A stretch of 64,000 bases of DNA from positions 41,057,835-41,121,834 of the forward strand of contig CP136066.1 in assembly GCA_032622095.1 (NCBI GenBank). Direction: 5' to 3'. The notes under the pieces were generated by a model, which was not told where the DNA came from, searched no databases, and was given only the letters and a program-made list of their open reading frames with translations. This stretch comes from Siphonodentalium dalli (Eukaryota; Mollusca; Scaphopoda; Gadilida; Siphonodentaliidae). The position numbers and the translations under genes are program-made. Position 1 is the first letter of the stretch, and the number at the start of each line of letters is the position of its first letter. This document shows, one piece after another, positions 3,637-37,758 of this stretch.

Positions 3637-4063
3637 TTAACCCTTTACCCAACAAAACGGCCAAAAACGCCCAAATAAAGCTTCAACAGCCTAAAATATC
3701 TTGGGTCTGTCTCAATAACACCATACAAATATGGGTATCATTGGAACCGGTTCATTGACCACATTGTGATGGCTACAGTTATGCCCTGTGCCAATGCATT
3801 CTCTTATATATGCGAGTCGACCATAGGTCGCCTCGCATATATAAGAGAATGCATTTTTACTGCCAGTATCGCGGCATGTCGTTTTTTAACACTTTTCTTA
3901 CATTCTTTAACAATTTTATAATTTTTTCTTACATTTTTTAACAATTTTTATAATATTTTTCTACATTCTTTGACACTTTTATCATTTTTAATATGTGTTA
4001 AGCCAATGCATTCTCTTATATATGCGAGGCGACCTATGGCCGTTCTGTTGGGTAAAGGGTTAA
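3637..4063. mobile_element. piggyBac-like MITE, family 1 (TTAA target)
   Basis: Flanked by TTAA on both sides with inverted ends CCCTTTACCCAACA / TGTTGGGTAAAGGG. A CCCTTT start and TTAA duplication are typical of piggyBac-like elements. It holds one full 70-bp hairpin (around 3785-3855) and half of a second (4008-4040). It has no coding capacity. AATAAA at 3674-3679 is the first poly(A)-signal match after the PGGHG stop. Confidence 0.85.
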
Positions 4064-4209
4064 GAAAATATAGAATCTGAGTCATGGTTATTTCATGCTA
4101 TTAAATATGATATTTTCACACATTTGCTGAAGTTGTTGTCAATCATTATTAAAACATCAAAATATGTCATTTTGGCCAAGAAATAATACCAATTTGATGC
4201 CATAAAAGC

Positions 4210-4637
4210 TGTGTTTAGTGTGCCTGTCATTGCAGAATGAGATCCCCAGTGGGCTAGCAGCACTAAATTCGTCCTCTGGGGACCTCATTCTGCTTAGGCC
4301 TCATCTTCTCTGGAAAGTTTCTTTATTATCAAATTTCTATAGAAACTTCTTCACATTGATTCTATTTCTTTTTCAGTTTAGTTTCTCTATATCCACAAAT
4401 TGGCAGACGACACATTGCATAATCGAGGGTCCCAATAGGTGACATCACAATATTCACCATTTGGGAACTTCAATCTGAGTCTGTCTCCCATAGCAGATGA
4501 GGCCATGCAGAACGAGGTACCCAGTGGTACCCAGGGGGTGAATTTAGTGATGCTAGCCCACTATGTGGGATAGAGTCACTAAATTCACCCTCTGGGGACC
4601 TCATTCTGCAAATGACTGGCACACTAAACTCAGGCTT
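4210..4637. mobile_element. Non-autonomous inverted-repeat element, double-hairpin superfamily (long form)
   Basis: The ends carry AGTGTGCCTGTCATTTGCAG-like inverted repeats, and GCAGAATGAGGTCCCC hairpins sit near each end around a 200-bp AT-rich centre. Related long copies occur at 15050, 15972, 16480, 20285 and 30540. Non-coding; superfamily not assigned. Confidence 0.6.
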
Positions 4638-4907
4638 GATATCAATCTGTTTTCGTTATGAAATATCCAACTTCTGTTGATTCATGCAGCGTGAATGTTT
4701 TTCATGATTTTCCTAAATAGATTTTTTTTAATGTTCCAAATCTAACGATATCCTAAAGCTAGACTCATACACATATCCAAGAATGAATTTTTATGACTTT
4801 TCCTGGATTTTATGAAATTATCCAAGACCTTGGTCAAAGAAATTCCATATTTTTTTCGAAATTTAGAAAGGCAGGATGTAAATAGATGTAAGATATAACT
4901 TAGATAG

Positions 4908-5308
4908 TTAACCCTTTACCCAACAAACCGGCCAAAACCGGCCAAATAAAGCTTCAACAGCCTAAAATATCTTCGGTCTGTCTCAATAGAACCATACACA
5001 TATGGATATCATTGGAACCGGCTCCTTGACCACATTGTGATAGTTACAGTTATGCCCTGTGCCAATGCATTCTCTTATATATGCGAGTCGACCATAGGTC
5101 ACCTCACATATATAAGAGAATGCATTGGCCTAAAAAAAAATCTTTTTTTAACACTTTTTACCATTTTTTCTTACATTCTTTAACAATTTTATAATTTTTA
5201 ATGTGTTAAGCCAATGCATTCTCTTATATATGCGAGGCGACCTATGGTCGACTCGCATATATAAGAGAATGCATTGGCACAGGGCCCTTCTGTTGGGTAA
5301 AGGGTTAA
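4908..5308. mobile_element. piggyBac-like MITE, family 1
   Basis: TTAA at both ends, CCCTTTACCCAACA termini and two full copies of the 70-bp hairpin (5058-5128 and 5209-5280) separated by an AT-rich spacer. This is the most complete member of the family in the window. Confidence 0.88.
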
Positions 5309-5412
5309 TCTATCTCACAACTTGGCCTCAGGATCAGTTAAATTATTGTTATATGTGTTATTTTATGAAAGAATCATGTGATAAATTTGTTGACATTCAT
5401 TATACCCATGTG

Positions 5413-5665
5413 CAAGCCTTGAAATAGTGTGTCTGTCATTTGCAGAATGAGGTTCCCAGAGGGTGAATTTAGTGATGCTATCCCGCATAGCGGGCTAGCA
5501 TCACCAAATTCACCCTCTGGGAACATCATTCTGCTGAGGTGTAAGCAGAATGAGGTCCCCAGAGGGTGAATTTGGCAATGCTAGCCTGCTAAGTGGGGTA
5601 GCATCACTAAATTCACCCTCTGGGGACCTCATTCTGCAAATGACAGACACCCTATTTCAAGGCTT
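5413..5665. mobile_element. Nested double-hairpin MITE, full length
   Basis: Ends CAAGCCTTGAAATAG / CTATTTCAAGGCTT. Each half is itself a hairpin made of GCAGAATGAGGT, AGAGGGTGAATTT and a small GC loop, so the whole is a palindrome of two palindromes. It has the same architecture as 9284, 10495 and 17644. No convincing target duplication at this copy. Confidence 0.8.
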
Positions 5666-5944
5666 AAATTCAATGACTGGTGCAATGTCCAGAACTTGGT
5701 CATAGGGAGGTTAAATAAGATGCCTTTTTTCCATTACTTTTTCAAGTCTGGAGATGGTACTTCATCCCGTTCTAAACTAAAGCATCATTGATGAGTAGTT
5801 ATCTCATAGAAAATGTTCAGATAACAAGTCGTTCAACACTTATTATCTAAACATTTCCTTCACCAGAATTAACAATGGGAAACAATAATCACCTGATTTT
5901 ATTTGAGAATCGATTCAATATCGATATCAGGAAGGAATTCGATA

Positions 5945-6161
5945 TACAGTAATGCCCAAAATAATTGACCACTTAACCACAGCAGAATTATGGGTAATTT
6001 TTCTGGATTTAGTCGGAAATATGGCTTGTTGTAATTCATCGGAAAGCTCTCGCTGAGAGCTTTCTGATGAATGGCAACAGGCCATATTTCCGACTAAATC
6101 CTGAAAAATTACCCATAATTCTGCTGTGGTTAAGTGGTCAATTACTTTGGGCATTACTGTA
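5945..6161. mobile_element. Palindromic mariner-like MITE (TA target)
   Basis: A nearly perfect 217-bp palindrome with ends TACAGTAATGCCC / GGGCATTACTGTA. TA flanks suggest a Tc1/mariner-type source (inference). The arms carry CAGCAGAATTATGGGTAA and GATTTAGTCGGAAATATGGC. About ten relatives lie in the window. Confidence 0.82.
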
Positions 6162-6695
6162 GAGATTCGATGCAAAATCCCAGATTCGCAGATTTGTTGG
6201 GAGTAAAAATAAGATAAATTATAAGAATAACAGTCATTATGCTAATCTGATATCATTAGAATACATAATAAATTAGCATATGCTAATCATATACCAAAAG
6301 AATACATTATTATAAATTAGCGTAGCATATCAAACAACAGTTCTTTTTTCAATAACAAAATAATTATTATTAAGAGAGAAACCAGATCATGCCATGAACC
6401 TACTCTGGCTACGTCCTTAGACATCAGTGATATTCCACACGTTGAAAACATGGGAACTTTTTGAAGTTCTCACTGGGAGCCTTAGCCCAAAGTAAAAAAT
6501 GTTTGTGGTTCGGGTTTCCCTACCCTCAAGTTTCTTAGTTTTCAAAAAATGTTTTATAAAAAAAAAAAAATAATGTTCACATTATACAGTTTACATGAAG
6601 AAAAGCATAATCAATTTTATCGAAATCTTGCAGAAGACACAAAAAGTCATAAAAATATTTCAAAATAAAACAAGAGCATCGCCATGGCAAAACAC
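6162..6695. other. Gene-free AT-rich spacer
   Basis: AT-rich sequence with short direct repeats near 6240-6320 (variants of AATTAGCATATGCTAAT) and an A-run near 6560. No exon or clear element seen. Confidence 0.5.
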
Positions 6696-6905
6696 ATGCT
6701 CTAAATAATCAACTCCTTAACCACAGCGGAATTATCGGTAACTTTTCAGGATTTAGTCGGAAATATAGCTTGTTGCCATTCATCGGAAAGTTCTCAGTGA
6801 GAGTTTTCTGATGAATTGCAACAAGCCATATTTCCGACTAAATCCTGAAAAATTACCCATAATTCTGCTGTGGTTTAGGAGTCGATTATTTAGAGCATTA
6901 CTGTA
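6696..6905. mobile_element. Palindromic mariner-like MITE, left end degenerate
   Basis: Same arms as the element at 5945. The right end GAGCATTACTGTA is intact, but the left terminal 10 bp differ. Confidence 0.7.
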
Positions 6906-7117
6906 AGCCTGTGGTAAATCCAACAAAGGTAGAAATTGGTGGGCGGAATCCAAAATCATACTTGACCTGTATATTGGGCTAGTAAACCCACATACCAAAT
7001 TTCATTTTATTCAGTTGAGACTATCTAAAGTTATCATCTGTAAACCAAAAGCAAACAGATGGACTGACCAATAACATAATACATCACTTTTCTTTTTTTA
7101 AAAGGGCGTATACAAAA

Positions 7118-7251
7118 TTGTTGCCATTCATCGGAAAGCTCTCGGACAGCTTTCCGATGAATGGCAACAAGCCATATTTCCGACTAAATCCTGAAAAGTT
7201 ACCCATAATTCTGCTGTGTTTAAGGAGTCGATTACTTAGGGCATTGCTGTA
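7118..7251. mobile_element. Mariner-like MITE, truncated left arm
   Basis: The central hairpin (GGAAAGCTCTCGG..) and right arm are present, ending GGGCATTGCTGTA. The outer part of the left arm is missing. Confidence 0.7.
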
Positions 7252-7477
7252 TTTAATTGAGAATTATATACATGTATTGCCTGCCTTCAAAAGGTTCCCA
7301 TGTTTTTAAGTGGTAAAATATAATCTCTACATGTATAGCTTGAGTAGAGATTCATGGAATGATCTAGAGAGAAAGTAGTGAGCAATCAAATGATAGTGCG
7401 AGTTCCACTCAGCCAACAAACATTCAAACATAGTCTGAATTTCCCGCCACACAACTGATTTGCGATCTCAGTGCAAG

Positions 7478-7725
7478 TACAGTAATGCCCTAAATAATCA
7501 ACTCCTTAACCACAGAATTATGGGTAACTTTTCAGGATTTAGTCGGATTTATGGCTTGTTCTTTCCGATGAATGGCAACAAGCCATATTTCCGATTAATC
7601 CTGAAAAGTTACCCAAGTGAGAGCTTTCCAATGAATGGCAACAAGTCAGATTTTCAACTAAATCCTGAAAAGTTACCCATAATTCTGCTGTGGTTAAGGA
7701 GTTGATTATTTAGGGCTTTACTGTA
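7478..7725. mobile_element. Mariner-like MITE with internal duplication
   Basis: Runs from TACAGTAATGCCC to GGGCTTTACTGTA. The interior contains extra partial copies of the arm (repeated AATGGCAACAAG words), so it is longer than the 217-bp standard form. Confidence 0.7.
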
Positions 7726-7930
7726 TGACGTTCTCAGTGCAACTTTGCTTTTCATTCTCAACGACTCGGCCATTGCCACTTTGGTCAGAAATAATCTCTT
7801 CCGTAAACCATATTAGCCAGAATATTTCAATCATGTGATCAATAATTTGTGCACACAGCTGGGAATTTCAATTGTTTATAGCGAAAATCGTTTGTTGAAC
7901 TTGAAATATTTATTGCTATTTATTTACTAA

Positions 7931-8130
7931 TTAACCCTTTCAGTGCCAGGTTGAATTTTTTTGGGTATGCTTAAGCATGCTATAGCGAAATTAAAAACCT
8001 ACAAAATAAGTCTGTTAAAGAATATAAGAAAAAATTATTAAAATTGTAAAAAATAATAGCATAGGTCGCCTCGCATATATAAGAGAATGCATTGGCACAG
8101 GGTATATGGGTTGATACCAAAATCGAACCA
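7931..8130. mobile_element. piggyBac-like MITE, family 2, truncated
   Basis: Starts TTAACCCTTTCAGTGCCAGG, contains half of the shared hairpin near 8059-8105, and then loses similarity before a right terminus. The centre is in inverse orientation to the copy at 22862. Confidence 0.65.
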
Positions 8131-8276
8131 CACTGTCTACAATTCCCCCCCCCCCCATTCCTGTTCAAGTTGTGATCAGTATTGACTGCATTTCAAGGTA
8201 ATTTCCTAATCACGAGGTCTGTGTATTGTAGCATTGCATGAATATGCTTTCTATTTATGGAAGAGGTTATTCTGAG

Positions 8277-9741
8277 TAGGGTTGCCACAACTCTTGAGTT
8301 TTCAGAATCCACTAACCGACAATTATAGTCGATGGTTAGTCGTTTAATCGTTCATATATGCGGCCTACATTACACCCAGGTAAAGTGATAAATGTGAAAT
8401 TATAATGACTACTTTACATCCAGTCTGAACACAGTTATAAACTTTGAGTGTTCTGTGTTTTATTTCATATTCATGCTCATTCGTCCCGATGTAATTATAA
8501 ACATGCCCTTACTATTAAATACTGCCCAGATGCAGATGAGCCCGATGTTACTGCAAACTGCGCACCGACGTGACAATAACTTCTAATTTGCATGAAGTAA
8601 AACTAATCTCGGCCGCGAGTCAACGATATATATTTCGGCAGAACACGTGGTTAGTCGGCTAAAAACACGAAACTGCGGCAAAAGGTATGATGTTGCACTT
8701 AGGTTAATGAGGACATTTATAGGTAAACAGAGGCAGATATTTGAGCTTTTGTGGGGTGACGGGGATGCAGTCACAATTACTGCCGAGTATAACCTGTACA
8801 TTTTCAATAAAAAGTTACAAGAAATAACGAAGCAAATTAATAGTTTATATACGTTACCACTTTGGAGAAGGTACATGTAATGTATGTAGCACTCATAAGT
8901 GATTACACAAACTTGTTACTGAGTAACTGTCTAGTAACTTTGAACATTCCATGTCCCGCAAACTTTGTGACTTTGTCAATAAAGGTGAATGTTTTAAAGT
9001 ATGAAATTTGAAATGAAACATAGATGCAGTCCGATGCACGTCATCCATTTTGGCTATAATGATCGCTAATTACCGATCCATAGGAACATAAATTAAAATT
9101 CACAGTTAAACATAATTTATAGACAATGTCAAGGCCGAAACATGACATCAATCGCAAAGGAAGCCGCTGGCCCACCATGGACTGTGAGAACATGTCGCAC
9201 ACCAAATTTTTTGAAGATGACCACCAAATGATGGCTGTGACATCAAAGGGAAAGGAAGCTGCATAGAAGTGGCGAGTCTGGTGCAAGCCTTGAAATAGTG
9301 TCTGTCATTTGCAGAATGAGGTCCCCAGATGGTGAATTTAGTGATGCTACCCTGCATAGCGGGCTAGCATCACCAAATTCACCCTCTGGGGACCTCATTC
9401 TGCTTACACATCAGCAGAGTGAGGTTCCCAGAGGGTGAATTTGGTGATGCTAGTCCGCTATGCAGGGTAGCATGACTAAATTCACCCTCTGGGGACCTCA
9501 TTCTGCAAATGACAGACACACTATTTCAAGGCTTGGTGAGAGAACAGGCTGTCGGGTGGTCATTTGTGCTTCATACACTGTTAACTGTTACCTCCAGGCA
9601 TGGCATTGATGCATAGTACTTCTTACACACACAACCATACCCCCCCCCCCTTGTGCTTTTAGTCGACGAAAGTTAATAACCGTCGACTACCGCACCTGTC
9701 GAAGGTTAGTTGATTAATCAAATAATCTCGCGGCAAGCCTA
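8277..9741. mobile_element. hAT-like non-autonomous transposon, 1465 bp
   Basis: Inverted ends TAGGGTTGCC / GGCAAGCCTA. Flanked by a perfect 8-bp duplication ATTCTGAG (8269-8276 and 9742-9749). 8-bp duplications and a TAGGG end are typical of hAT elements. Inner inverted pieces with GTCGA/TTAGTCG words follow each end. It contains a nested double-hairpin MITE at 9284-9535. No transposase frame is visible; the 77-aa and 97-aa frames inside look random. Confidence 0.82.
9284..9535. mobile_element. Nested double-hairpin MITE inside the hAT-like element
   Basis: Full length: CAAGCCTTGAAATAG to CTATTTCAAGGCTTG with two internal hairpins. It inserted after the enclosing element, whose two halves continue on either side. 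Confidence 0.82.
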
Positions 9742-10494
9742 ATTCTGAGCTAAGCAGAAATGGCCGAGTCGTTGATACTACTTGGATTTTATGACCAAAT
9801 ATAAACCGCAATATATCCAATAATATAAACATGGGAAGAAACAACAAGAGTTCTGCATCTATATGTATCTGTCAGAGAGTCAATTCAGACCTAGCCATTT
9901 AAACCTTTTTTCACAGAATGGATTCTCCCCCACAGTTGAACAATTATGCATTGGAATGGTCTTCGCGGTTAAAAATCATAACATTCTGTAAATCCATCAT
10001 CACCGAGAATAACACGGGATATATATCATAATTGTTATTTTCTTTGTAAATAATTCTTCACAAAATTTGAAACCACTGTTAACCCTTTCATGAGGGAGCT
10101 GTGCTTGTGCTTTCCCTTATACTCAAAGAATAAGACTAAGTTTCCCCGGTCAACAACAGAATACACAGAATGACATGCGTGTTAATTAACCATTACATAA
10201 CGGGAGATGTGCTGGTGCATTAATATCATGAAGCTCCAGTCATGGAATGGTTATGGATAGACCAAGTCTTTTCAGTCCACAACAGCCCTTTCTATACAGA
10301 TTGGACTCATCCACAGAGTTATAAAATTAAGCATTGAATGGTCTATTATTAATTTGAAGGGTTTTTTAGGAAAAATAAGCAGACTACAGATAATACAAAC
10401 ATAGAAGGAGTCCTGTTTATTGAAGAGAAATGTTCATAAAATAATTTATTTGTTTTTTTTTTCACTTGAAAAAGGTCACTAGAATGGCTGTAAG

Positions 10495-10748
10495 CAAGCC
10501 TTGAAATAGGGTGTCTGTCATTTGCAGAATGAGGTCCCCAGAGGGTGAATTTAGTGATGCTACCCCGCATAGCAGGCTAGCATCACCAAATTCACCCTCT
10601 GGGGACCTCATTCTGCTTACACCTCAGCAGAATGAGGTTCCCAGAGGGTGAATTTGGTGATGCTAGCCCGCTATGCGGGGTAGCATCACTAAATTCACCC
10701 TCTGGGGACCTCATTCTGCAAATGACAGACATCCTATTTAAAGGCTTG
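10495..10748. mobile_element. Nested double-hairpin MITE with 8-bp target duplication
   Basis: Full-length copy flanked by GCTGTAAG at 10487-10494 and 10749-10756. Both inner hairpins are almost perfect, suggesting a young copy. Confidence 0.83.
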
Positions 10749-10984
10749 GCTGTAAGCTGGTGATATTAAAGGGGCACTGTACATTAAATCCAGCCATTTA
10801 TGGGACCATCTCCTGTTATACTCAACAGAATATATGCAACACATGAACCATTTTCTTACATTCTTTAACAATATTTTATCATTTAAAAAAAAAATTCTTA
10901 CATTCTTTTGACAATTATAAATAATAATATAAAATTTGTTATTTAGGGTGACTGCATATGTAAGAGAATGCAGTGACACACTGT

Positions 10985-11126
10985 TTTCGCAAAATTTCAG
11001 GAAGCTCCAGTGATGGAGCTTTCTGAATCCTGATGAATGGCAACAAGCCATATTTCCAACTAAATCCTGAAAATTACCCATAATTCTGCTGTGGTTAAGG
11101 AGTCGATTATTTAGGGCATTACTGTA
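10985..11126. mobile_element. Mariner-like MITE, right arm only
   Basis: A short GGAAGCTCCAGTGATGGAGC-type loop, then the standard right arm to GGGCATTACTGTA. A degenerate piece of the 70-bp hairpin precedes it near 10930-10980. Confidence 0.6.
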
Positions 11127-11311
11127 TGCTGATGCTGAGAGGCCGCAGATCGTTTGGGCTGTGTGAAAATTTTCCAAACAGAAAGCTATTAAATAAAATA
11201 ACCATATATACAATCATGTCATTGGGTATCCTGGCCAGATCATTCATATTAAATCGAAAGGCCACTTTTTTGATAACTGGTTTGACTATATTTAATGCAA
11301 CTAAAAGCGTG

Positions 11312-11474
11312 TACAGTGATGCCCTAAGTAAATATGGCTTGTTGCCATTCATCGGAAAGCTCTCAGGGAGAGCTTTCCTATGAATGGCAACAAGCCATAT
11401 ATCCGACTAAATCCTAAAAAGTTACCCATAATTCTGCTGTGTTTAAGGAGTCGATTACTTAGGGCATTACTGTA
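11312..11474. mobile_element. Mariner-like MITE, left arm shortened
   Basis: Starts TACAGTGATGCCC, jumps directly to the inner arm, then has a complete right arm ending GGGCATTACTGTA. Confidence 0.72.
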
Positions 11475-11783: not shown

Positions 11784-12161
11784 ATTAACCCTTTACCCAA
11801 CAAACCGGCCAAAACCGGCCAAATAAAGCTTCAACAGCCTAAAATATCTTCGGTCTGTCTCAATAGAACCATACAAATATGGATATCATTGGAACCGGTT
11901 CCTTGACCACATTGTGATAGTTACAGTTATGCCCTGTGCCAATGCATTCTCTTATATATGCGAGTCGACCATAGGTCGCCTCGCATACATAAGAGAATGC
12001 ATTGGCCTAAAAAAAATCTTTTTTTAACACTTTTTACCATTTTTTCTTACATTCTTTAACAATTTTATAATTTTTAATGTGTTAAGCCAATGCATTCTCT
12101 TATATATGCATATATAAGAGAATGCATTGGCACAGGGCCCTTCTGTTGGGTAAAGGGTTAA
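11784..12161. mobile_element. piggyBac-like MITE, family 1
   Basis: TTAA flanks, CCCTTTACCCAAC termini and two hairpin modules. The second (near 12086-12135) has lost its centre, leaving a shortened stem. Confidence 0.85.
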
Positions 12162-12209
12162 TAGGCTATTCCAATGTATACTTTTATAACAGAGAGTGGG
12201 AGAATACAT

Positions 12210-13440: not shown

Positions 13441-13556
13441 GTGCAGGTTATTGACTGCCATACATTGGTGTATTGTAGCAAATATATCACTTGTTCACAT
13501 AAACAGAACAGTGACCACATATTACTGATCCAGTGCCTCCAGCATTCTGATATACA

Positions 13557-15045: not shown

Positions 15046-15049
15046 AAAA

Positions 15050-17118: not shown

Positions 17119-17335
17119 TACAGTAATGCTCTAATTAATCGACTCCTTAAACACAGCAGAATTATGGGTAACTTTTCAGGATTTAGTCAGAAATATGGCT
17201 TGTTGCCATTCATCGGAAAGCTCTCGGGGAGATCTTTCCAATGAATGGCAACAAGCCATATTTCCGACTAAATCCTGAAAAGTTACCCATAATTCTGCTG
17301 GGTTTAAAGAGTCGATTAATTAGAGCATTACTGTA
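17119..17335. mobile_element. Palindromic mariner-like MITE
   Basis: A full 217-bp copy, TACAGTAATGCTC to GAGCATTACTGTA, with compensatory-looking changes at both termini. Confidence 0.8.
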
Positions 17336-17337
17336 TT

Positions 17338-17580
17338 TGCAGAATGAGGTCCAGAGGGTGAATTTAGTGACGCTATCCTGCACAACAGGCCTACATCACC
17401 AATTTCACCCTCTGGCGACCTCATTCTGCAAATTTATGGTCGACTCGCATATATAAGAGAATGCATTGGCACAGGGTTATAACTGTAACCATCACAATGT
17501 GGTCATTGAACCGGTTCCAATGATATCCATATTTGTATGGTGTTATTGAGACAGACCGAAGATAATTTAGGCTGTTGCAC
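17338..17580. mobile_element. Juxtaposed fragments: double-hairpin unit and inverted piggyBac-like piece
   Basis: A single degraded hairpin (GCAGAATGAGGTCC .. CTCATTCTGC, 17338-17428) abuts half of a 70-bp hairpin and the conserved piggyBac-MITE arm (ATGATATCCATATTTGTATGG) in inverse orientation. Confidence 0.6.
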
Positions 17581-17643
17581 AATATTCACCATCTGGGAAC
17601 TTTAAATTTCGGTCCAGGTCTCCCATGATGAAGCCATGAAGAG

Positions 17644-17879
17644 CAAGCCTTGAAATAGTGTGTCTGTCATTTGCAGAATGAGGTCCCCAGAGGGTGAACA
17701 TAGCGGGCTAGCATCACCAAATTCACCCTCTGGGGACCTCATTCTGCTTACACCTCAGCAGAATGAGGTTCCCAGAGGGTGAATTTGGTGATGCTAGCCC
17801 GCTATGCGGGGTAGCATCACTAAATTCACCCTCTGGGGACCTCATTCTGCAAATGACAGACACCCTATTTCAAGGCTTG
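17644..17879. mobile_element. Nested double-hairpin MITE with 19-bp flanking duplication
   Basis: Full-length termini. The left hairpin has an 18-20 bp deletion. Flanks are identical over ATGATGAAGCCATGAAGAG on both sides (17625-17643 and 17880-17898). Confidence 0.82.
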
Positions 17880-18580: not shown

Positions 18581-18582
18581 TT

Positions 18583-19653: not shown

Positions 19654-20055
19654 TTAACCCTTTACACAACAAAGCGGCCAAAAACGGCCAAATAAAGCTG
19701 CAACAGCCTAAATTATCTTGGGTCTGTCTCAATAAAACCATACAAATATGGATATCATTGGAACCGGCTCATTGACCACATTGTGATGGTTACAGTTATG
19801 CCCTGTGCCAATGCATTCTCTTATATATACGAGTCGACCATAGGTCGCCTCGCATATATAAGAGAATGCATTGGCCTAAAAAAAATCTTTTTTTAACACT
19901 TTTTACCATTTTTTCTTACATTCTTTAACAATTTTATAATTTTTAATGTGTTAAGCCAATGCATTCTCTTATATATATGCGAGGCGACCTATGGTCGACT
20001 CGCATATATAAGAGAATGCATTGGCACAGGGCCATTCTGTTGGGTAAAGGGTTAA
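19654..20055. mobile_element. piggyBac-like MITE, family 1
   Basis: TTAA flanks, CCCTTTACACAACA termini and two intact hairpin modules (19805-19876, 19956-20028). Confidence 0.87.
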
Positions 20056-22861: not shown

Positions 22862-23331
22862 TTAACCCTTTCAGTGCCAAGTCCAATTTTTGTATCAACC
22901 CATATACCCTGTGCCAATGCATTCTCTTATATATGCGAGTCGACCATAGGTCGCCTCGCATATATAAGAGAATGCATTTGCCTAACAATTTTTTATCATT
23001 TGTTATTATTTTTTACAATTTTAATAATTTTTTCTTATATTCTTTAACAGACTTATTTTGTAGGTTTAGTGCCAGGGAATCTTACATTTTTCATGGGCAT
23101 CAAAATTATTACTATGAATACTTGGTGATAGTTTTGAGTTATAACATGCCCCTAAGGTTTTATCCAGTTTGTTTTTAAATTCGCTATGGCATGCTTAAGC
23201 ATACCCAAAAAATTCAACCCCAAAAAAAAAATGAAAAAAAAAAAAAATGTATTTTTTATTTTTTTTTACGGCCGATTTTACAGACCGTAAATTAGGGCCG
23301 AACAGATCGCTCCTGGCATTGAAAGGGTTAA
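22862..23331. mobile_element. piggyBac-like MITE, family 2 (full length)
   Basis: TTAA flanks and ends CCCTTTCAGTGCCAAGTCC / GCTCCTGGCATTGAAAGGG, different from family 1. It holds one copy of the same 70-bp hairpin (22912-22980). Long A and T runs lie near 23220-23265. No coding capacity. Confidence 0.85.
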
Positions 23332-24171: not shown

Positions 24172-24565
24172 TTAACCCTTTCAGTGCCAAGTCCGATATT
24201 TGTATCAACCCATATACCCTGTGCCAATGCATTCTCTTATATATGCGAGTCGACCATAGGTCACCTCGCATATATATATATAAGAGATTGCATTGGCCTA
24301 ACAATTTTTCATCATTTGTTATTATTTTTTACAATTTTAATAATTTTTTCTTATATTCTTTAACAGACTTATTTTGTAGGTTTAGTGCCAGGGAATCATA
24401 AGTTTTTCATGGGCATCAAAATTATTACTATGAATACTTGGTGATAGTTTTGAGTTATAACATGCCCCTAAGGTTTTATCCAGTTTGTTTTTAAATTCAC
24501 TATAGCATGCTTAAGCATACCCAAAATTTGGTTTTGAAATTTACTCCTCAAGACCGTAAATTAGT
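24172..24565. mobile_element. piggyBac-like MITE, family 2, 3' truncated
   Basis: TTAACCCTTTCAGTGCCAAG start. The hairpin module at 24225-24297 has an expanded TATATATATA centre. The right terminus is missing. Confidence 0.75.
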
Positions 24566-25801: not shown

Positions 25802-26167
25802 TTTTTTACCCTGTGCTAATGCATTCTCTTATATATGCGAGTCGACCATGGGTCGCCTCGCATATATAAGAGAATGCTTTGGCCTAACAATTTTTTATCA
25901 TTTTTTAAAAATAAATGTTTCTTACAATTTTTAGGACATAAAATAAAAAACATCCATTACCCTGCAGGGAGCCCCACACATATATATAGAAGCTCATGTT
26001 TGTCTGGGGCTCTGTATGGGTGAAATTATAAAATTATTAAAGAATACAAGAAAAAATTATTAAAATTGTAAAAAATTGTTAGGCCAATGCATTCTCTTAT
26101 ATATGCGAGGCGACCTATGGTCGACTCGCATATATAAGAGAATGCATTGGCACAGGGTAAAAAAAAT
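25802..26167. mobile_element. Solo pair of 70-bp hairpins without piggyBac ends
   Basis: Bounded by TTTTTTACCCTGTGC and GCACAGGGTAAAAAA, with hairpin modules at 25812-25883 and 26086-26157 and an AT-rich spacer. No CCCTTT terminus or TTAA is present on either side. Confidence 0.7.
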
Positions 26168-26289
26168 CCCGACTTACGACTGGATTTGATATGGCGGGTC
26201 ACATATATCTGATCATTTATAAAGGGACTTCAAACTTGGTGCTTTACGTTGAAGGAAACTTGGACTAAGTGAAAGAGAGTTTAATTTCA

Positions 26290-27243: not shown

Positions 27244-27621
27244 TTAACCCTTTACCCAACAAACCGGCCAAATAAAGCTTCAACAGCCTAAAATATCTTC
27301 GGTCTGTCTCAATAGAACCATACAAATATGGATATCATTGGAACCGGCTCCTTGACCACATTGTGATGGTTACAGTTATGCCCTGTGCCAATGCATTCTC
27401 TTATATATGCGAGTCGACCATAGGTCGCCTCGCATATATAAGAGAATGCATTGGCTTTTTTTAACACTTTTTACCATTTTTTCTTACATTCTTAAACAAT
27501 TTTATAATTTTGAATGTGTTAAGCCAATGCATTCTCTTATATATGCGAGGCGACCTATGGTCGACTCGCATATATAAGAGAATGCATTGGCACAGGGCCC
27601 TTCTGTTGGGTAAAGGGTTAA
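27244..27621. mobile_element. piggyBac-like MITE, family 1
   Basis: TTAA flanks and two intact hairpin modules (27384-27456, 27525-27596). Slightly shortened left arm. Confidence 0.87.
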
Positions 27622-29302: not shown

Positions 29303-30473
29303 CAGTGTTCGCGCTGTCGGTAGCCAAATTAGCCAATGGCTAATCTTTTTCGAATTTGGCTAATAAAACTTTCATTTGGCTAAACTTTTAGCTAAACTTT
29401 TTTTAACCCAAATGGAGACTGAAAGCATGGAGCCAGAAAGCTAATTAATAAAAGCGCTCAATAGATCGGCATTCAAGACGAAGTTAGGTGACGAAAGTAT
29501 TTCATTATTTTCGTACTTATGAAATATCGTACAAAGGGGAACCCGATCGACAACTCTATCAACCAAGCGATCACAAAGTGATATGCAATCATCTTTAGTT
29601 TTCACAAGACGGACATTCAAAGACGCATGGACATTAAAGCGACCGTGGTTGAATTATGACAATGTGAAGAAAGCAATGTTTTGTAAAGTGCATTGACGCC
29701 GGTATATAAGCAATTTGTTCGTAACAGGCTGTTTTAATCTGGAAAAAGATTACGTCACTCTGCACGAAGCAGCAAAAGGTCATTATTAATTTTTACATTT
29801 AATCCCCTAATCCCCCATTCAGCCCATTGTCTGTCTGGTCACTCACGGCGCGCCTGCACAATGCATGTTTATGATGACATTGTATTTAAGACGGTCGAGG
29901 TTTATGAGCACCAAGTGTAAGACAAAAGCTTAATCAGCCAAATGTGAATCACGACAGATATTTTGTGGCTATTTGTCGTCATTACCGATACAGTCAAAAT
30001 AATATGCATGCTTTTATGACAGATTGTAATTTGATAATGGCGTAACAATATTAAGTTATTAGTTTCCAGATGTCACTTAGATATTTTCGCAAGGATAAAT
30101 ATTTAATGATTTAAAAAAAGATATTGATAAAAAACAAAAAAATAATGACATTAAGAAGGACAATCCCGGGTTACACCCCCCCCCCCCAATCACTCTTTCA
30201 CATAAAGATTAATAAATTTTTAATAAATGATATATATAAAAATACTTCTAGTTCATCAAAATGATTTAAATTATTGTATATTTTACCTGTGTCTGTTAGA
30301 TTTTACGTTTTAGTCATTAATTGTGAACCGACCAGAAAACGATGATTTAATTTGGCCAAAGTTTTTTTTAATTTGGCCAAAAAACATTTGGCTAAAGTTG
30401 TTTTCATTTGGCTAATAAAATTTTCATTTGGCTAAACTTTTGGCTAAAGTTTTTTTCGGTCCAGCGCGAACAC
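29303..30473. mobile_element. hAT-like element, 1171 bp
   Basis: Inverted ends CAGTGTTCGCGCTG / CAGCGCGAACACTG. Flanks ACCGTATG (29295-29302) and ACCGTACG (30474-30481) match at 7 of 8 positions. Both subterminal regions are built from repeats of CATTTGGCTAAACTTTT-type words. No transposase frame visible. A C-run lies near 30175. Confidence 0.8.
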
Positions 30474-30539
30474 TGACCGTACGTGGAATCCATCAGCAAT
30501 GCCAAGGGCATTCATAAATAGAATGGCTATCAGGCCTGA

Positions 30540-30715
30540 GTATATTAAAGGTGCCTGTCATTTGCATGCTATGCTGGATAGCGTCACTAAATTCACCCTC
30601 TGTGGACCCCGTTCTGCTTAGGCCTCATCTTCTCTGGAAAACTTTATTATTTGATTTCTATAGAAACTTCTTCACATAGATTCTATTTCTTTTTTAGTTT
30701 CTCCGATCAACTATT
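30540..30715. mobile_element. Double-hairpin superfamily, long form, partial
   Basis: TGCCTGTCATTTGCATGCTATG, part of a hairpin, then the TTCTCTGGAAA centre shared with the 4210 element. Confidence 0.5.
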
Positions 30716-31193
30716 TTTAGATGTGCAAATTACGGAATGGGACAGGGCTCACTGTCGTTTTATTGTGTAAATGTGCGGACATTTCAGCCTTCCATGCTGA
30801 GCACATTGTTGCGTTATTATGTCTGTCCGACTGAATCCACGAAATAATGCAATTATTCCAGTTCAGTGATGTAACATTTACGTCACCGGGATGCGGGTTG
30901 ACACCTGGATTTTAACGAATATATTACTGTTCACTTCAGACAGACAGGTAGTTTATAATTAAGATATTAGGTGGTATTCAAGCAAATTAGTTCACAATTC
31001 ACATAGTGTACAATCGGTTTCCGTTTACTATCGATATCAACGTCAATTTTGGGCGAATGTTAGTTGAGATATTAGAGAAGAACCATAAAATGCCTATACA
31101 TTTTATGTTGAGCATTTCAACCTTTTCGAACCAATATTTTCGAGCCGAATACAATTGAATATCGAGACCGAATTGAGTAACAACACTGTCGGA

Positions 31194-31680
31194 TACCCGT
31201 TTAGGTTCGTACGTGTCAAGATGGCGGTGCCCAGTGGACAGGATAAACGGTAAGTGTATATATTGTCTTCAAGCATCAATTAACGACATCTTTCGGTGAT
31301 ACACATTTAAACAGTTATGTAGGAATTTGTATGCCCAACACCTACTTACATGCCCTTCGCAATGTTAGCTTTTTCATAATTTTTTGGCCATGGGCTCATG
31401 GATCTGCACATTTATGTATTGTCCTGGGTAGATTAGATCTTCGGAATGTAAAACCACCGATATTTTTATTGTCTTACTCCGAAAAACGACCTTTGAAAAT
31501 TTCAAAATGTTCAGGTTCAGATTCGCAATATTTCCGATGATTTTGTTCAGGTTCAGAAACAATTTTCGTTTAGGTTCGGACAATTGCGATCAGGTTCGGA
31601 CGCATCAAAACCTCACCAAGAAGCGAAATGCCTAGCTGCAGTAGCGCTGTTATTGTGCTTGTTGTTTACGAGCACGCATT
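31194..31680 (+). repeat. Left arm of a 5-kb inverted repeat
   Basis: Begins TACCCGTTTAGGTTCGTACG and is the reverse complement of 35465-36224 with moderate divergence. The arm carries an ATG in a CAAGATGGCGG context, a splice donor, and further on a run of CAGGTTCAGA/CAGGTTCGGA words. Inner similarity fades near 31680. Confidence 0.8.
31221..31249 (+). CDS. Candidate first coding exon (promoter-like), unidentified
   Basis: ATG at 31221 in CAAGATGGCGGTGCC, then MAVPSGQDK plus two bases before GTAAGTG at 31250. The CAAGATGGCGG context matches the YY1 promoter motif, which often overlaps housekeeping start codons. No downstream exon was found. The inverted copy (start at 36197, - strand) keeps the motif and donor but has a stop after MAAPSE. 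This may be a captured or duplicated first exon and not a working gene. Confidence 0.3.
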
Positions 31681-31892
31681 GTTATATCTAATGATGTCAG
31701 CTGAAATTTACAAATATAGGTGGTAATTCTCCGAATGAGTGGGACAAAAGCCACAGTTAAATAATGTTGCCAATAATCTCGAGAATTGTCGGCTATACAC
31801 CAGCTAGTGGGGAATGAAATTACATTGCCATATTACATATGAGCAACAGTATATATAGTAATGTTAGTTATCTTCGGCAATATCGGGGGTAG

Positions 31893-31990
31893 GGCCTACA
31901 TGGAGATTTAATACCTGGATGTCGATTTTGAACCCAGAGGCGGAGCCAAGGGTTCAAAAAGCGGCATCCAGGTATTAAATCTCCATGTAC
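31893..31990. repeat. Inverted repeat (ATGGAGATTTAATACCTGG arms)
   Basis: Arms of about 35-40 bp (TTTAATACCTGGATG and complement) surround AACCCAGAGGCGGAGCC. Short foldback, function unknown. Confidence 0.6.
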
Positions 31991-31999
31991 CCCACGATG

Positions 32000-33949
32000 T
32001 TGGCAGAGATAACGATTTTGCCCCCACAACAATAGCTACCATGCGGTGTGATTTTCATAGGTTATTAGATAAATTCACACCAATCGGCACCAATAAGAAT
32101 AATTCAGTAGCCGACCAATCGGTCCTGTGTCAGGTGACGTCATATAGTGCACGCTCAGTGTGTTACTGAGAACAATGTCACGATTGGTGGAAACTGCTAG
32201 TTCAAGGGTCATTCATAACCCCGATGTTTCACGTGTTATTATACCCCACTGTCAAGAGTTACGGGGACATGGTGCATGATTTAAACGTGACGTTGTTGTC
32301 AATCAGTTTGCTAGTTACAACCGGATGTGATGGACAAATGTTTTTGTTATATGCTTCCCAATGAAATAGCCGTAATTTTGAGTGGCATACGATGCGCTCT
32401 CTTTCGCCAGGACCTAGGCATGGATAACACTTTTCAAAAGTTGCTTAGATATTGTTATTTCACTGTAGATACTTCCGTTAAACGAGAGGCCGATCACGAT
32501 CGACAGATGTTTAACCCATACCTTGGCGATAACGATTAGCTATTTTCATAAATCCTTACACCAACCTTTTCAACAATTCACATCTTACTATTAAAGCTAC
32601 TCGATCCGATTAAGCACCCCTCAGTTATGTTTTATTTGGCTTTGGGGGTAAAAAATATTTTATTCAAATCGAGGAACCCATTCCTCAAAGCTCAGAATAA
32701 GCAGATATCAATTTTTAAAATCTATTATCTTTAACCACCTGGAATATTTAGTGGCCGTATGAAAGTTGATGAAGATGGATAACTCTAAAATCAAGTGTTT
32801 TTTTTGTGTGAGATATATGACAAAGTAGCAAAATTTCATTGTACAAAATGTTGATAAATAACAGATTTTGGGCAATTTTATACTAGTGGACTGTGGTTAG
32901 CATTATTTTTGGGCAATTAATTGACTCTGATAACAGAAGCGGAATTTCAAAAAAACTGTTGTTGTTGGAATCTGATGATATGGGGACCATCAAATCGGAT
33001 TGAGTACCTTTAAGTTCACAAGTGGCATAAGACTTATTGGGCACCGTCCATATGAACATGGATATGGCATTTGATTCCAACCTATTAAGTCAGTATAAAA
33101 TAGATATATAGTCTTATAGAGCTCAGTCCATAGTCAGGCAGAAGAACCATACATAACAGTTAAAGATAAACTATTTTAAAAATTTCGTAAAATATGATTG
33201 ATAATGATTGGATATAACATACTTTAATGCATAATTATGAGATAACTAGAGGTCACCAGGGATATGAGATTGAAGATATTAGATTTATTACATTGGATAG
33301 CATACTGTATGTCTATGGAATGGGTGGGTTAATTTTGATAATATTTTAAAGCAATTAAACCAAATGACCCTCTCTGTACAGGTTAGGGGTGTGTTATCAT
33401 AAACTATGACTTGAAATATAATATAATCAATGACAAATATTTGAGTTATTAAATGAGATAGCAAGGGGTTGATCTTAATCACATTAATGAACTGATCAAA
33501 ATAGTCTATAAATGCATGTATATGGATTTAGAAGCCCACACAATAAGTCCGTCTCAAGAATACAAGCAACATAATTATTATCCTGCACCCCAAATGCAAT
33601 AGAGGGAATTTCAAAATAAGACATTTCCTCTAATGTTTTTAGAAATCCTTACTGAACCTGGCTCAAAGTGAAAGATATAATTTAATATCTGCCTATCAGA
33701 TATCATGTGACTATGGAATGGGTTAATATTAATCCCAAAATCCATGCAAGACCAGAGAGCTATGTTGGAGTTGATAAATCCTGAGAAGTCACTGTCCACA
33801 CACTATGGAAATTCAATAAACAACAGATAGCTATTTCTCCTCACACTAATGTCTAAAAATAACTCTAATTATCAATAACTCAGATACTGCTTGTCTCTTA
33901 CAGAGCTAATGTTTTACTGCTGGTGCTGGTAATCAATTATTTGTTGACT
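32000..33949. other. Interior of the 5-kb inverted repeat, no gene seen
   Basis: AT-rich with weak internal repetition (GATATCATGTGACTATGGAAT-like words near 33300 and 33700, suggesting an old duplication). The frame at 32327-32539 has no recognisable similarity. Confidence 0.4.
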
Positions 33950-34510
33950 GCTATGGTTATCTGTTCAATTCTTAGTTGAACAAGGGCCATAACTCTGGTA
34001 TAAAATGTTGGATCTAACCCATATTCAATCTCGATTTGTATTTTGAAATGAGAAACTCGCATACCAAATTTGGTTCTTATCAGTTGAAAAATGGTTGATT
34101 TATCAAAATATGCAGAAATTCTATGTCAAAGGGCCATAACTCCATTGAAAAATATCGGATCAAACCCATATTCGAACTCGATCTGTATTTTGGTCCGAGA
34201 AACTTGCATACCAAATTTGATTCTGATCAGATAATTTTTGTTTGAGTTATGGTAGCATGCATGAATTCTAAGTCGAAAAAGGGCCATAACTCCGTGAAAA
34301 AAACTCGGATCGAACCCATATTCGAACTCGATCTGTATTTGGTGCTGACAAATTCATATAAAAAATTTGGTTCCGATCAGATATAAAATGTTTGAGTTAT
34401 CGCACCATGCGTAAAGTGTCTACAGACAGACAGACAGACAGACAGACAGACGGACTAACGACGAGTGGTCAATCCGGACAACGACACTATGTTTACCATA
34501 CTATGGTATG
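33950..34510. repeat. Degenerate tandem block with (CAGA)n tail
   Basis: Three units of about 120 bp (CGAACTCGATCTGTATTTTG, GGGCCATAACTCC) followed by CAGACAGACAGACAGACGG (about 34421-34452) and ACGACACTATGTTTACC. Same family as 28000 and 39190. Confidence 0.65.
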
Positions 34511-34884
34511 GGTAAACATAAAAAAGGTAAACAATTATTGGCGCGTGTATTAACAATGGAACTACGCGAAATTCCGCGGAAGACTGAAAATAGTTCATTA
34601 CTGCGATAAATTCTAAAGAAAAACAAATGATCCTGTTTTATTACGTATTCAGTTGTTATTTGTCTTGATAATTGAGTTTCTGTGTGTAATATTTAACCAT
34701 TGGGTATAGGAACTATTCTTTTAGACGCAAGTAGGAAATTTTCCAACCAAATTTAGTGATGCGTAATTTGCCAACGGAAACAGCTGATATTGTTTGCATT
34801 AGTTTCGCTACTTCGGCGTCTAAATTCTTGTTTCGATAGACATATACTTGTAGTTTTGCAGAATTACTTACCATAAGCATAACA

Positions 34885-34985
34885 TAAAGAGAACATCTAT
34901 GGTTTCTCGAATAATATATTCCTGAAATATCACAGCTCTTGAAGATTCGCTTATTGCAGGTATCATTCGAGAAACCATAGGTATT
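34885..34985. repeat. Imperfect inverted repeat
   Basis: CTATGGTTTCTCGAATAATA pairs with TATCATTCGAGAAACCATAG, with AGAACATCTA and complement-like sequence outside. Probably a small foldback element. Confidence 0.55.
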
Positions 34986-35464
34986 ATCTATGTTCGCATA
35001 TCTGATTAATAGTCCTGCACAATAGTCGTGTCTATAAATATTATCGATATTAGATTGTTGGTATTACGGGGAATTCGTTGAAGATGGCGTACATTACCCC
35101 TTTAACTCAGTTCTGAAATTGTCACGAATGATACCGTATAGCAAGCTCCGTACAGAGTTCAGTGCAGAATTTAGCGAAGCGAAGGGACTGAACCCTGTTT
35201 TGCAGCTTGGAATGTTACATCATCACCAGTGAATATTAGTCTAATCTCAATGGCCATGCATACTTAACATGTAACAGGAAGATGTATCGACAGTTGTGAA
35301 CAGATATCTGATCATCTACCTGCAGCGACCTTAGTGGCCTCGTATGTGGGTTGGGAGGGGAACCACAAGTACGCAAATATGTATCTTCCATGCATACATA
35401 AAGAAAGTCCGCCCTAATTATTCCGGAGTGGGCTAAAACCATGCCAAGTGTTCCCCGTTTATTG

Positions 35465-36224
35465 TGTTTTTTTTGTTACGAATAGAATATAAGCAACACG
35501 TACAATAACAACGCGACTGCAGCTTATGGCAAGCCAAACCACTACTTAATATTAATTTTATTTAGTAAAATAAAATGACACTTTATTTTACTGAAGTAAA
35601 ATAAAATATGATTTTATTTCACATAAGTAAAATAAAGTGTCATTTTATTTTACTTAAGTAAAATTAATATTAAATAGCGGTTTGGCTTGCCATAGCAGCT
35701 GCTGGGTATTTCGTTTCTCGGTGAGGTTTTGATGCGTCCGAACCTGAACGAAAATTGTCCGAACCTGAACAAAAATTGTTTCTGAACCTGAACAGAATCA
35801 TCGGAAATATTGAGAATCTGAACCTGAACATTTAGAAATTTTCAAAGGTTGTTTTCAAAAACAATAAAAATATCGGTGGTTTTGCATTCCGAAGATGTGT
35901 GGTAGCCTAATCTACCCAGGACAATACATAAATTTGCGGACCCATGAGCCCATGGCCAAAAGATTACGAAAAAGCGAACATTTCGCCGCATCGATAAAAT
36001 TTCGAAAATTTATGACGACTTGACACTCCAAATACAATATTTTGCATGCCTGTCATGCGAAAGGCATGTCACGTAGGTGTTGGGCATACAAATTCCTACA
36101 TAACTGTTTAAATGTGTATCACCGAAAGATGTCGTTAATTGATGCTTGAAGACAATATATACACTTACCGTTTATCCTATTCACTGGGCGCCGCCATCTT
36201 GAAACGTACGAACCTAAACGGGTA
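35465..36224 (-). repeat. Right arm of the 5-kb inverted repeat
   Basis: Reverse complement of 31194-31680, ending CGTACGAACCTAAACGGGTA. It is longer than the left arm because a 167-bp palindrome (35526-35692) and about 100 bp near 35960-36060 are inserted. Confidence 0.8.
35526..35692. mobile_element. AT-rich palindromic foldback inserted in the right arm
   Basis: Nearly perfect palindrome, from GGCAAGCCAAACC to GGTTTGGCTTGCC, made of TAAAATAAAATGACACTTTA-type words. Comparison with the left arm shows it interrupts an otherwise continuous arm. Confidence 0.75.
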
Positions 36225-36537
36225 GGGGGGGGGTAATAAGTTTAAGCATCTTACCATGGGGAGGAGTCTGTGGGCTTGTCGCAGAGTGTTGAGTTAAATT
36301 CTGTAAAAGATGGAACGAGACATTAATACCGGTACCAATGACTTTTATAATTAGTCACTGCTCTAAATAGATCATTCTAAATAATTATGCACATTGAATA
36401 CAAAATTTATTTGTTAATGGTACAGTTACATGTAAGTGTTATTTACTGATGTTCACTACCCACATGGTACATGGAATGTAACATACATTACAGGGTTTCC
36501 GCTTGGGCGGCAGGGGATCCCTTTTGGGCTCCCATTC
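36225..36537. other. Gene-free spacer
   Basis: G-run at 36224-36233, then AT-rich sequence. No exon or element recognised. Confidence 0.45.
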
Positions 36538-36629
36538 CTACCCTGGCTCAACATTTTCTATAAACCAAACACCTCTCTGAACCGAACTGAAGGGCAGGGT
36601 GTTTGGTTTGGAGAGGTTTTACTGTATAT
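36538..36629. mobile_element. pogo/Tigger-like MITE fragment
   Basis: CAAACACCTCTCTGAACCG and, at the right end, GTTTGGAGAGGTTTTACTGTA. Only the inner left and right terminus remain. Confidence 0.6.
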
Positions 36630-37031
36630 CTCTAATCTCTATACACCGGAAGCAATGCTGTCATAACTTGAAATGCTGAAATTTGGCGACATTATTCATC
36701 TAGTGTTTAAACAATTAATTGACTACTAGTCGACATCGACTAGAATTTCAGCCAAAATCCACAATAAAATTGCCAGCCAACTAGGTGCCCTTTTTGCTTA
36801 GATAATAGCAATATCGTTATAACGAAGTGCAGTCAATGACTGCATGTATTATATGGACACAGGCATGTGAAAGCATGGACAATAAGTGTTTTCGTACCGG
36901 TAGGTGTAAATAATATAGTCAGTAACAAACCTAGCCTAGTCATGGTTACATTCGCAGTCAAACAAGCAGGTGCTGGGATAGTCATGGTTTGCTTTTCCAT
37001 ACTTCATGTATATGTGATATGGTGCGGACTA

Positions 37032-37399
37032 TTAACCCTTTACCCAACAGAACGGCCCTGTGCCAATGCATTCTCTTATATATGCCAGTCGACCATAGGT
37101 CGCCTCGCATATATAAGAGAATGCATTGGCTTAACACATTAAAAATTATAAAATTGTTAAAGAATGTAAGAATAAATGGTAAAAAGTGTTTTAGGCCAAT
37201 GCATTCTCTTATAGGTCGCCTCGCATATATAAGAGAATGCATTGGCACATGGCATAACTGTAACCATAACAATGTGGTCAATGAGCCGGTTCCAATGATA
37301 TCCATATTTGTATGGTTTTATTGAGACAGACCCAAGATAATTTAGGCTGTTGCAGCTTTATTTGGCCGTTTTTGGCCGGTTTGTTGGGTAAAGGGTTAA
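37032..37399. mobile_element. piggyBac-like MITE, family 1 (inverse orientation)
   Basis: TTAA flanks with CCCTTTACCCAACAGAACGG / GGCCGGTTTGTTGGGTAAAGGG ends. Hairpins at 37062-37131 and 37195-37248, the second shortened. Confidence 0.86.
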
Positions 37400-37513
37400 A
37401 TAACTAATTGATTAGAGACCTTTGACTGGTGGACTAGTTAATTCCCTAATTGTTTCAACACTAGTTTCTTCAAAATTCTGTTTTTACGAAAACTGAAAAG
37501 GTTGTCTTTGATA

Positions 37514-37758
37514 TTAACCCTTTGAGTGCCAGGTCCGATTTTTGTATCAACCCACATACCCTGTGCCAATGCATTCTCTTATATATGCGAGTCGACCATA
37601 GGTCGCCTCGCATATATAAGAGAATGCATTGGCTTAACAATTTTTTTCCTTTTTTTTTTCTTTCTTTCAATTTTAATATATTTTATTATATTCTTTAAAC
37701 AGATTTATTGTGTAGGTTTAGGGCCGATAATATCGGCCCCTGGCACTCAAAGGGTTAA
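37514..37758. mobile_element. piggyBac-like MITE, family 2, at the WDR20 3' end
   Basis: TTAA flanks, ends CCCTTTGAGTGCCAGGTCC / CCTGGCACTCAAAGGG, one hairpin at 37564-37636. It lies 13 bp beyond the WDR20 exon 3 donor. The - strand frame of exon 3, if not spliced, enters its right terminus and stops at 37718-37720. Confidence 0.86.

Follow-up and report, generated by a model that had tools for sequence, protein, structure and literature searches.

MITE families are classed by their ends, and the locus described here raises the question of how a single hairpin core comes to be shared by families whose ends are unrelated. The locus lies in a 64,000-nucleotide stretch of the Siphonodentalium dalli genome (assembly GCA_032622095.1, contig CP136066.1, positions 41,057,835 to 41,121,834, forward strand), referred to below as the window. 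The original prediction placed a 70-bp hairpin in two piggyBac-like MITE families and in a solo form, and proposed either a hairpin that moves by itself or a functional module exchanged between families.

The hairpin cassette and its copies in the window

The common unit consists of the motif CCCTGTG, a near-perfect hairpin of 67 bp and a T-rich spacer. It frequently takes a composite form of two inverted copies, CCCTGTG-H1-spacer-H2-CACAGGG, of which the F2 family carries only half. The sharing of the predicted module is confirmed, but not its length, since the unit exceeds 70 bp and takes in the spacer. As DNA, the stem folds with -36.3 kcal/mol (z -14.8). The arm of the hairpin has 36 matches in the window at up to 3 mismatches, compared with 0.01 expected from 100 shuffles. 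The window contains 16 paired hairpins and 5 unpaired arms. Of the latter, those at 4003, 8076 and 17450 are half hairpins, the one at 10957 has diverged and the one at 12171 is a weak match; the earlier count of about 18 copies with base-paired arms was a fair one.

Twelve matches to F1 ends form six paired elements, and F1 copies are about 370–430 bp long. Five of these elements lie on the forward strand. At 3637..4063, H1 is whole, while H2 stops at its centre, where the F1 right end follows; two whole hairpins (5062-5128 and 5211-5277) are present at 4908..5308; and at 11785..12161, H2 (12087-12130) lacks its centre. The element at 19654..20055 carries two hairpins, one with an additional TA, and both hairpins at 27244..27621 match the consensus exactly. 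The sixth, at 37032..37399, is reversed and retains one hairpin, with an internal deletion ending at the centre. An F1 left part on the reverse strand (17435..17580) is followed by CCCTGTG and half a hairpin, which breaks at the centre, where another repeat is joined.

F2 is represented by four left ends (7931, 22862, 24172 and 37514) and only two right ends (23327 and 37754), all on the forward strand. The elements at 22862..23331, with CCCTTTSAGTGCCA ends, and 37514..37758 contain one hairpin each (22914-22980 and 37566-37632), and the left part at 24172..24383 contains one at 24224-24296. The expectation of one hairpin per F2 copy holds for these three, but the left end at 7931..8095 is accompanied only by half a hairpin in inverted orientation. 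No right end was found for the latter two copies. A diverged arm on the reverse strand (10957..10976) adjoins F3-type sequence and was assigned by eye as an old copy.

The pair of hairpins previously described as having neither end (25802-26167) does lack F1 and F2 ends. However, it belongs to an F4 element on the forward strand (25809..26202), in which the composite CCCTGTG-H1-spacer-H2-CACAGGG is followed by a right F4 end reaching 26202, while the left F4 end is lost except for a T tract. This solo copy is therefore a truncated family member, and the case for a solo form falls for it.

Carrier families and genome-wide abundance

The cassette is carried by at least four MITE families, F1 to F4, whose ends are unrelated apart from TTAACCCTTT, so that the predicted sharing of a hairpin between such families, with arms that stay paired, is borne out. 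F1 and F2, and to judge by its ends probably F3, are TTAA elements of piggyBac type. TTAA precedes 12/12 F1 ends and 6/6 F2 ends in the window, and the tip CCCTTT of all three families fits the piggyBac-type CC(C/T)T. Among the F3 right ends read, TTAA is intact in some and altered in others, and the search pattern for F3 itself required TTAA. F4 differs in both respects: its ends, GTGACCCGCC, do not have the CC(C/T)T tip, and it lacks the TTAA site of a piggyBac-type MITE. Of 10 short F4 copies, 9 have a target duplication of four A/T bases (ATAT, AATT, ATTT and AAAT among them), and a long copy, L143, has no target duplication.

Inside these ends, the spacers of F1, F2, F3b and F4 are related, with 0/300 shuffles for each pair (one or two copies per family), whereas 14 of the 15 comparisons between outer flanks showed no relation; only F3's own two ends resemble each other. 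The internal region is thus more alike between families than the ends are, as in the CMITEs discussed below. In the copies read, the outer edge of the cassette is identical to the base on both sides of F1 and in F2, F3 and F4. No target duplication surrounds the cassette in the copies of F1 or F3 that were read; TA flanks it on both sides in F4 only, and on one side in F2. No gradual intermediate between F1 and F2 was seen among the copies read, and chimeric copies, such as L116 and L102, are present. Most of the contexts read lie at the start of a single chromosome, and local duplicates are among them.

On the scale of the 2.2-Gb genome, the arm has 573,378 matches, compared with 250 for a reversed control, and exact cassette edges number 152,002; the cassette is present in well over a hundred thousand copies. 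A purine precedes 99.0% of the exact edges, as in the families read. Most follow G, the base found in F1 (88,919), and the others lie in the F4 context (24,676), in the F2 context (13,655), after A outside these two contexts (23,256) or after a pyrimidine (1,496). There are 91,612 exact F1 ends, a number close to that of the edges after G, which would follow if two edges were present in most F1 copies. The right-end sequence of F4 has 12,886 matches at up to 3 mismatches. Since a single genome holds about 150,000 exact edges, the spread of a core between transposon families could become directly measurable, and the same set of edges could show whether selection or templated repair keeps the hairpin paired.

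Explanations for the shared core

The explanation favoured here, held with about even confidence, is that four or more MITE families with unrelated ends captured the cassette, which the transposase of each carrier has amplified passively. The cassette may once have been an element with its own ends, in which case the common edge would be the terminus of a mini-element that once inserted into the carriers or was captured by them. F3, the most diverged host, would then be an early carrier. The hairpin could be kept in register by templated repair or template switching, without selection being required, while cruciform breakage at the centre could drive further rearrangement. A bolder reading, in which the cassette is a transposon parasite (a mini-element with its own ends that lives almost only inside other MITEs, moves among families that depend on different transposases and is preserved by hairpin-templated repair in any carrier), appears doubtful.

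It is also possible, if more tentatively than capture, that the core never had ends of its own and was copied from one MITE family to another by recombination or template switching, with fork stalling at the hairpin as an aid. Chimeric copies are consistent with such exchange, as are several breaks at hairpin centres. In a small set of junctions sorted by eye after the fact, 6 of the 8 that leave an F1-, F2- or F4-type hairpin fall at positions 31–37 of 67 (37, 36, 35, 33, 31 and 33, the last two being both sides of L143); the remaining two lie at 53 (L092) and at 19 (a third end in L143). The set was drawn from 51 listed arm ends, leaving out the F3-type rows, which have another centre than the reference, any change in (AT)n length and the internal deletions at 12087, 37196/37245, L002 and L123. 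The window junction at 4003 joins F1's own right end. Template switching is able to create and mend hairpins (PMC8794818), and quasi-palindromes break in yeast (PMC3855049). Exchange of this kind nevertheless predicts scattered edges, while the outer edge falls on one and the same base in the copies read of all four families.

If the hairpin acted inside the elements to raise mobility, as a binding site for a transposase or host factor might, the MITEs that acquire it would outgrow others, and the carriers are indeed very numerous. The C-terminal domains of piggyBac and piggyBat transposases bind subterminal palindromes (PMC11707139), and such a role was proposed for the cores of coral CMITEs (PMC2872659). 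Short subterminal palindromes were also noticed by eye in some autonomous piggyBac copies of this genome. This explanation is nonetheless unlikely. F4 does not insert at TTAA, which makes a piggyBac-specific enhancer less likely and means that one transposase-specific site does not explain all carriers, and F3 has a different hairpin centre. Among the 128 listed matches to PF13843, 30 loci and 20 flank pairs were examined, and an autonomous piggyBac with the same module, which the original prediction proposed to look for, was not found among them, nor were F1–F3 ends serving as transposase ends, although ends were recognised in only some. The arm (up to 4 mismatches) is absent from all 30 transposase loci of about 4 kb, and in the 20 further flank pairs arms occur only in the neighbouring F3 MITE of L071. 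One F1-like match with 2 mismatches is present at L020:1187.

It is highly improbable that the hairpin still moves independently from one MITE to another at present. An identical consensus in three families could be read in favour of such movement, as could hairpins without a recognised end at L119 (with its duplicate L123) and L127, contexts picked elsewhere in the genome, and rare solo copies may exist. However, all 18 module loci lie within F1–F4 (13 in the window, not counting the weak arm at 12171, plus 5 from 12 arbitrarily placed 5-kb samples), some having been assigned by eye, and the suggested self-movement finds no support in them. The F4 right end is retained in the window's solo copy and, in part, in L135, and no clear independent insertion of the cassette with both ends was found among the contexts read. 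The purine before nearly all exact edges points the same way, but this test is weak because a target preference could give the same result.

Precedents, origin and variation of the hairpin

Within TTAA families, a close precedent is provided by the CMITEs of Acropora corals (Wang et al. 2010, PMC2872659), described there as TTAA MITEs of about 100 bp with a 75-base core and an estimated ~1,600 copies in A. millepora. Both systems combine TTAA, several CCCTTT-type ends, one internal region better conserved than the ends, tandem arrays, piggyBac elements in the genome and a core without an established origin. The core described here, in contrast, is a 67-bp hairpin with a spacer, often doubled and inverted, and far more numerous; F4 is not a TTAA family, F1 is longer, and the cores were compared by description rather than by sequence. 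New here are a core found in families of different target-site types, its hairpin form and the scale.

The MER6 MITE with a SINE V domain (PMC6887750) likewise has a conserved domain found in otherwise unrelated mobile elements, which nested insertion explains; its source, V-SINE, is known, unlike that of the cassette. Modular bivalve pearl-type MITEs and satellite–TE networks (PMC5139131) also contain modules common to several repeats, and in one satellite the junctions map within palindromes, 13 of 16 at the longer one; those modules are satellite monomers, whereas the unit shared here is a hairpin whose outer edge is the same in its carriers. The piggyBac and piggyBat palindromes (PMC11707139) similarly lie just inside the transposon end, but they are mutually unrelated in sequence and each is bound by its own transposase, while the 67-bp hairpin of the cassette recurs in families whose ends are unrelated. 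That TTAA and non-TTAA families share a core shows that the interior of a MITE can have its own history, as conserved SINE domains do.

As to origin, the sequence GGCGACC-TAT-GGTCGAC at the centre of the hairpin is similar to GCGACATAAGTCGC, which one autonomous piggyBac family has near its end, so that a piggyBac CRD palindrome may be its source. This stays a lead, because the F3 centre is CTCCC-ATA-GGGAG and F4 is not of piggyBac type. No protein-coding source of the cassette was found, an exact 26-base stretch of the arm had no match in viral contigs or prokaryote genomes, and no known RNA family matched the window at gathering score.

The hairpin consensus is identical at 67/67 positions in F1 left (n = 14), F1 right (12), F2 (15) and F4 (23), some copies being local duplicates, while that of F3 differs by two paired changes. 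The suggested test for compensatory changes in the stems gave more paired changes than shuffling: they occupied 14 cells, compared with 4.3 in shuffles (0/500; 18 hairpins, 15 of them F3). Changes in F3 stems are mostly one-sided (73, versus 10 paired and 2 two-sided but unpaired). The hairpin is not uniformly more conserved than its flanks. Differences in hairpin and flank, in copies picked by exact patterns, were 1.22% and 3.33% for F1 left (11 rows), 0.17% and 3.09% for F1 right (9 rows), 1.17% and 12.24% for F2 (14/15 rows kept, with indels spoiling the flank) and 1.32% and 0.44% for F4 (17/21 rows kept); because of this choice of copies, no conclusion on relative conservation is drawn from them. 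Private variants common to H1 and H2 of one element were not supported, occurring only in L096 among 19 F1- and F4-type elements (2 variants), a result reached by 309/5000 shuffles. Two F3 elements, left out of that comparison, share some variants between H1 and H2.

The hairpin and its carrier families

The hairpin reads CCAATGCATTCTCTTATATATGCGAG-T-CGACC-ATA-GGTCG-C-CTCGCATATATAAGAGAATGCATTGG, and its single T/C mismatch, retained across the family consensuses, marks its orientation. As DNA it folds with -36.3 kcal/mol (z -14.8). Its arm, CCAATGCATTCTCTTATATA, has 36 matches in the window when 3 mismatches are allowed (0.01 expected) and 287,279 + 286,099 in the 2.23-Gb genome (nine contigs), compared with 113 + 137 for the pattern read backwards. 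Among 100 paired hairpins collected, 87 are 67 bp long (79 assigned to families and 8 unassigned); 34 unpaired arms, some of them chance matches, were tallied separately.

At least four MITE families, F1 to F4, carry this hairpin. F1 runs from TTAA through the CCCTTTACCCAACA end, about 150 bp, CCCTGTG, the first hairpin, a T-rich spacer, the reversed second hairpin, CACAGGG and a short right end to TTAA, while F2 has the ends CCCTTTSAGTGCCA and a single hairpin. F3 has TTAACCCTTTCATGACTGGAGCTTCC, and its left end is matched 10,256 times genome-wide with at most 1 mismatch. Copies were read at loci L001, L045, L071 and L101-L112, among others; L102 and L110 have the F3 end and no arm within the mismatch limit of the search. 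F4 was discovered through a hairpin pair at 25809..26202 of the window, whose right flank has 12,886 genome matches, often as facing pairs. In ten copies selected by this flank (L091-L100), GTGACCCGCCATATCAAATCCAGTCGTAAGTCGGGATTTTTTTTA precedes CCCTGTG at both sides with small changes, and the target duplication is 4 bp of A/T in nine. Because of these ends and this duplication, F4 is not piggyBac-type. The long F4 copy L143 is flanked by inverted copies of one sequence, and no target duplication was found around it.

A shared cassette and the solo form

F1 left (n = 14), F1 right (n = 12), F2 (n = 15) and F4 (n = 23) share one and the same hairpin consensus; in that of F3 (n = 15) two base pairs are changed, with T:A in place of G:C and C:G in place of A:T. 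The spacers of F1, F2, F3b and F4 are related, every pair exceeding 300 of 300 shuffles; the short F3a spacer showed no relation to the others in this comparison. Once TTAACCCTTT is removed, 14 of 15 comparisons show no relation between outer flanks; only the two ends of F3 itself are alike.

The outer boundary of the cassette at CCCTGTG, here called the edge, occurs in its exact form CCCTGTGCCAATGCATTCTC 152,002 times in the genome, preceded by a purine in 150,506 cases and by a pyrimidine in 1,496. Edges after G, the F1-like context, number 88,919; those in CATATA (F2-like) and TTTA (F4-like) number 13,655 and 24,676, and 23,256 other A-preceded edges include F3. Exact F1 ends have 91,612 matches, and among 100 matches listed at least 92 lie no more than 420 bp from an edge or arm. 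For F4 outer ends there are 20,357 matches; at least 52 of 74 (among 100 matches listed) lie no more than 500 bp from an exact edge, and slightly altered edges are present in some of the remaining 22, as in L097 and L100.

All 18 module loci of the window (13) and of 12 arbitrarily placed 5-kb pieces (5) lie within F1-F4. Of 20 A-preceded edges sampled at the start of contig C1, several being local duplicates, 10 belong to F2, 4 to F3 and 2 to F4; L116 has an F2 inner part and a different outer part, L127 an F4 interior with no recognised ends, and the mutual duplicates L119 and L123 yet another context, the middle of which resembles F4. Twelve pyrimidine-preceded edges comprise 3 F1 left, 3 F1 right, 2 F3, 2 F4 and two F4 interiors with a foreign left flank (L135, L139).

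The original prediction described a solo hairpin pair with neither family end. The window copy indeed lacks F1 and F2 ends, but it is not endless, since it keeps the F4 right end. L135 also retains part of this end, so that the solo form resembles, for the most part, a damaged F4; L119/L123, L127 and L139 are left outside that reading.

The identical outer edge in five contexts supports a cassette with a defined end, which may once have been a mini-element. Evidence against recent movement of its own is that F1 and F3 lack target duplications around the cassette and that clear solo insertions are missing. The target duplications of the carriers are of two kinds, so that at least two transposases presumably move the cassette. 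The nearest system in print is the coral CMITE group, TTAA families with differing ends and a common core (PMC2872659). A literature search of limited coverage returned no case of a single core in TTAA and non-TTAA MITEs.

Paired changes and breaks in the stem

In the 15 F3 hairpins 73 changes are one-sided; of the two-sided ones, 10 are complementary and 2 unpaired. Shuffles, which treat copies regardless of kinship, give 3.1 complementary changes, and 0 of 2000 reach 10. Some of these changes lie in F3 copies with an F1-type centre. Non-F3 hairpins have 4 complementary changes versus 0.35 shuffled (0/2000). F3 and three other hairpins together have 14 paired-change cells versus 4.3 (0/500), and slid structures give at most 5. 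Besides selection, template switching can also be a source of such changes (PMC8794818).

Eight junctions to foreign sequence were found in F1/F2/F4-type hairpins. With the centre at position 34 of the 67, six of them stop at 37, 36, 35, 33, 31 and 33 (window 4003, 8095 and 17469; L124; both sides of L143); two are off-centre, L092 at 53 and a third L143 end at 19. Although the set is small, the central junctions fit a hairpin that was extruded and then broke, as quasi-palindromes in yeast are described to do (PMC3855049).

Other repeats and genes

Another palindromic repeat, about 100 bp long (GCAGAATGAGGTCCCCAGAGGGTGAATTTAG...) and often in two tandem copies, lies at 5442-5637, 9311-9506, 10524-10719 and 17330-17850, and is joined to a broken F1 hairpin at 17435. 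In the F3-type copies L004 and L111 a unit of about 70-80 bp, built from a degraded hairpin and spacer, is repeated three to four times in tandem.

Positions 37718-39097 of the window hold a WD40-repeat exon. The genome contains an amplified Bcl-2-family gene, with at least 128 PF00452 matches, which point to a probable animal source; many form inverted pairs separated by about 1,004 bp, with open frames of 205 codons. L147 (C1:260062300-260065100) was read over 2.8 kb and is palindromic throughout, its two divergent frames being identical (Pfam 2.9e-14), and in L143 (C1:4495930-4497740) a Bcl-2-family copy with an internal stop lies inside the long F4 element, with the joins at two hairpin centres.

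Among piggyBac PF13843 matches, at least 14 with a 562-codon frame have an in-frame TGA, two also a TAG, and represent either an amplified defective family or a codon read through. The copies L009, L011, L018-L031 and L038 are up to 99.9% identical, with mostly open frames and, by eye, short subterminal palindromes; they were possibly active recently.

Cassette edges recur about every 14.6 kb at C1:735748-779416, every 11.2 kb at C1:820016-920822 and every 7.9 kb at C1:94237018-94292223, a regularity that indicates large tandem arrays containing these MITEs. In the window, 164-bp tandem arrays (AAATCCAAGATGGCTGC...) occupy 1-1118 and 45656-48862, 45 kb apart.
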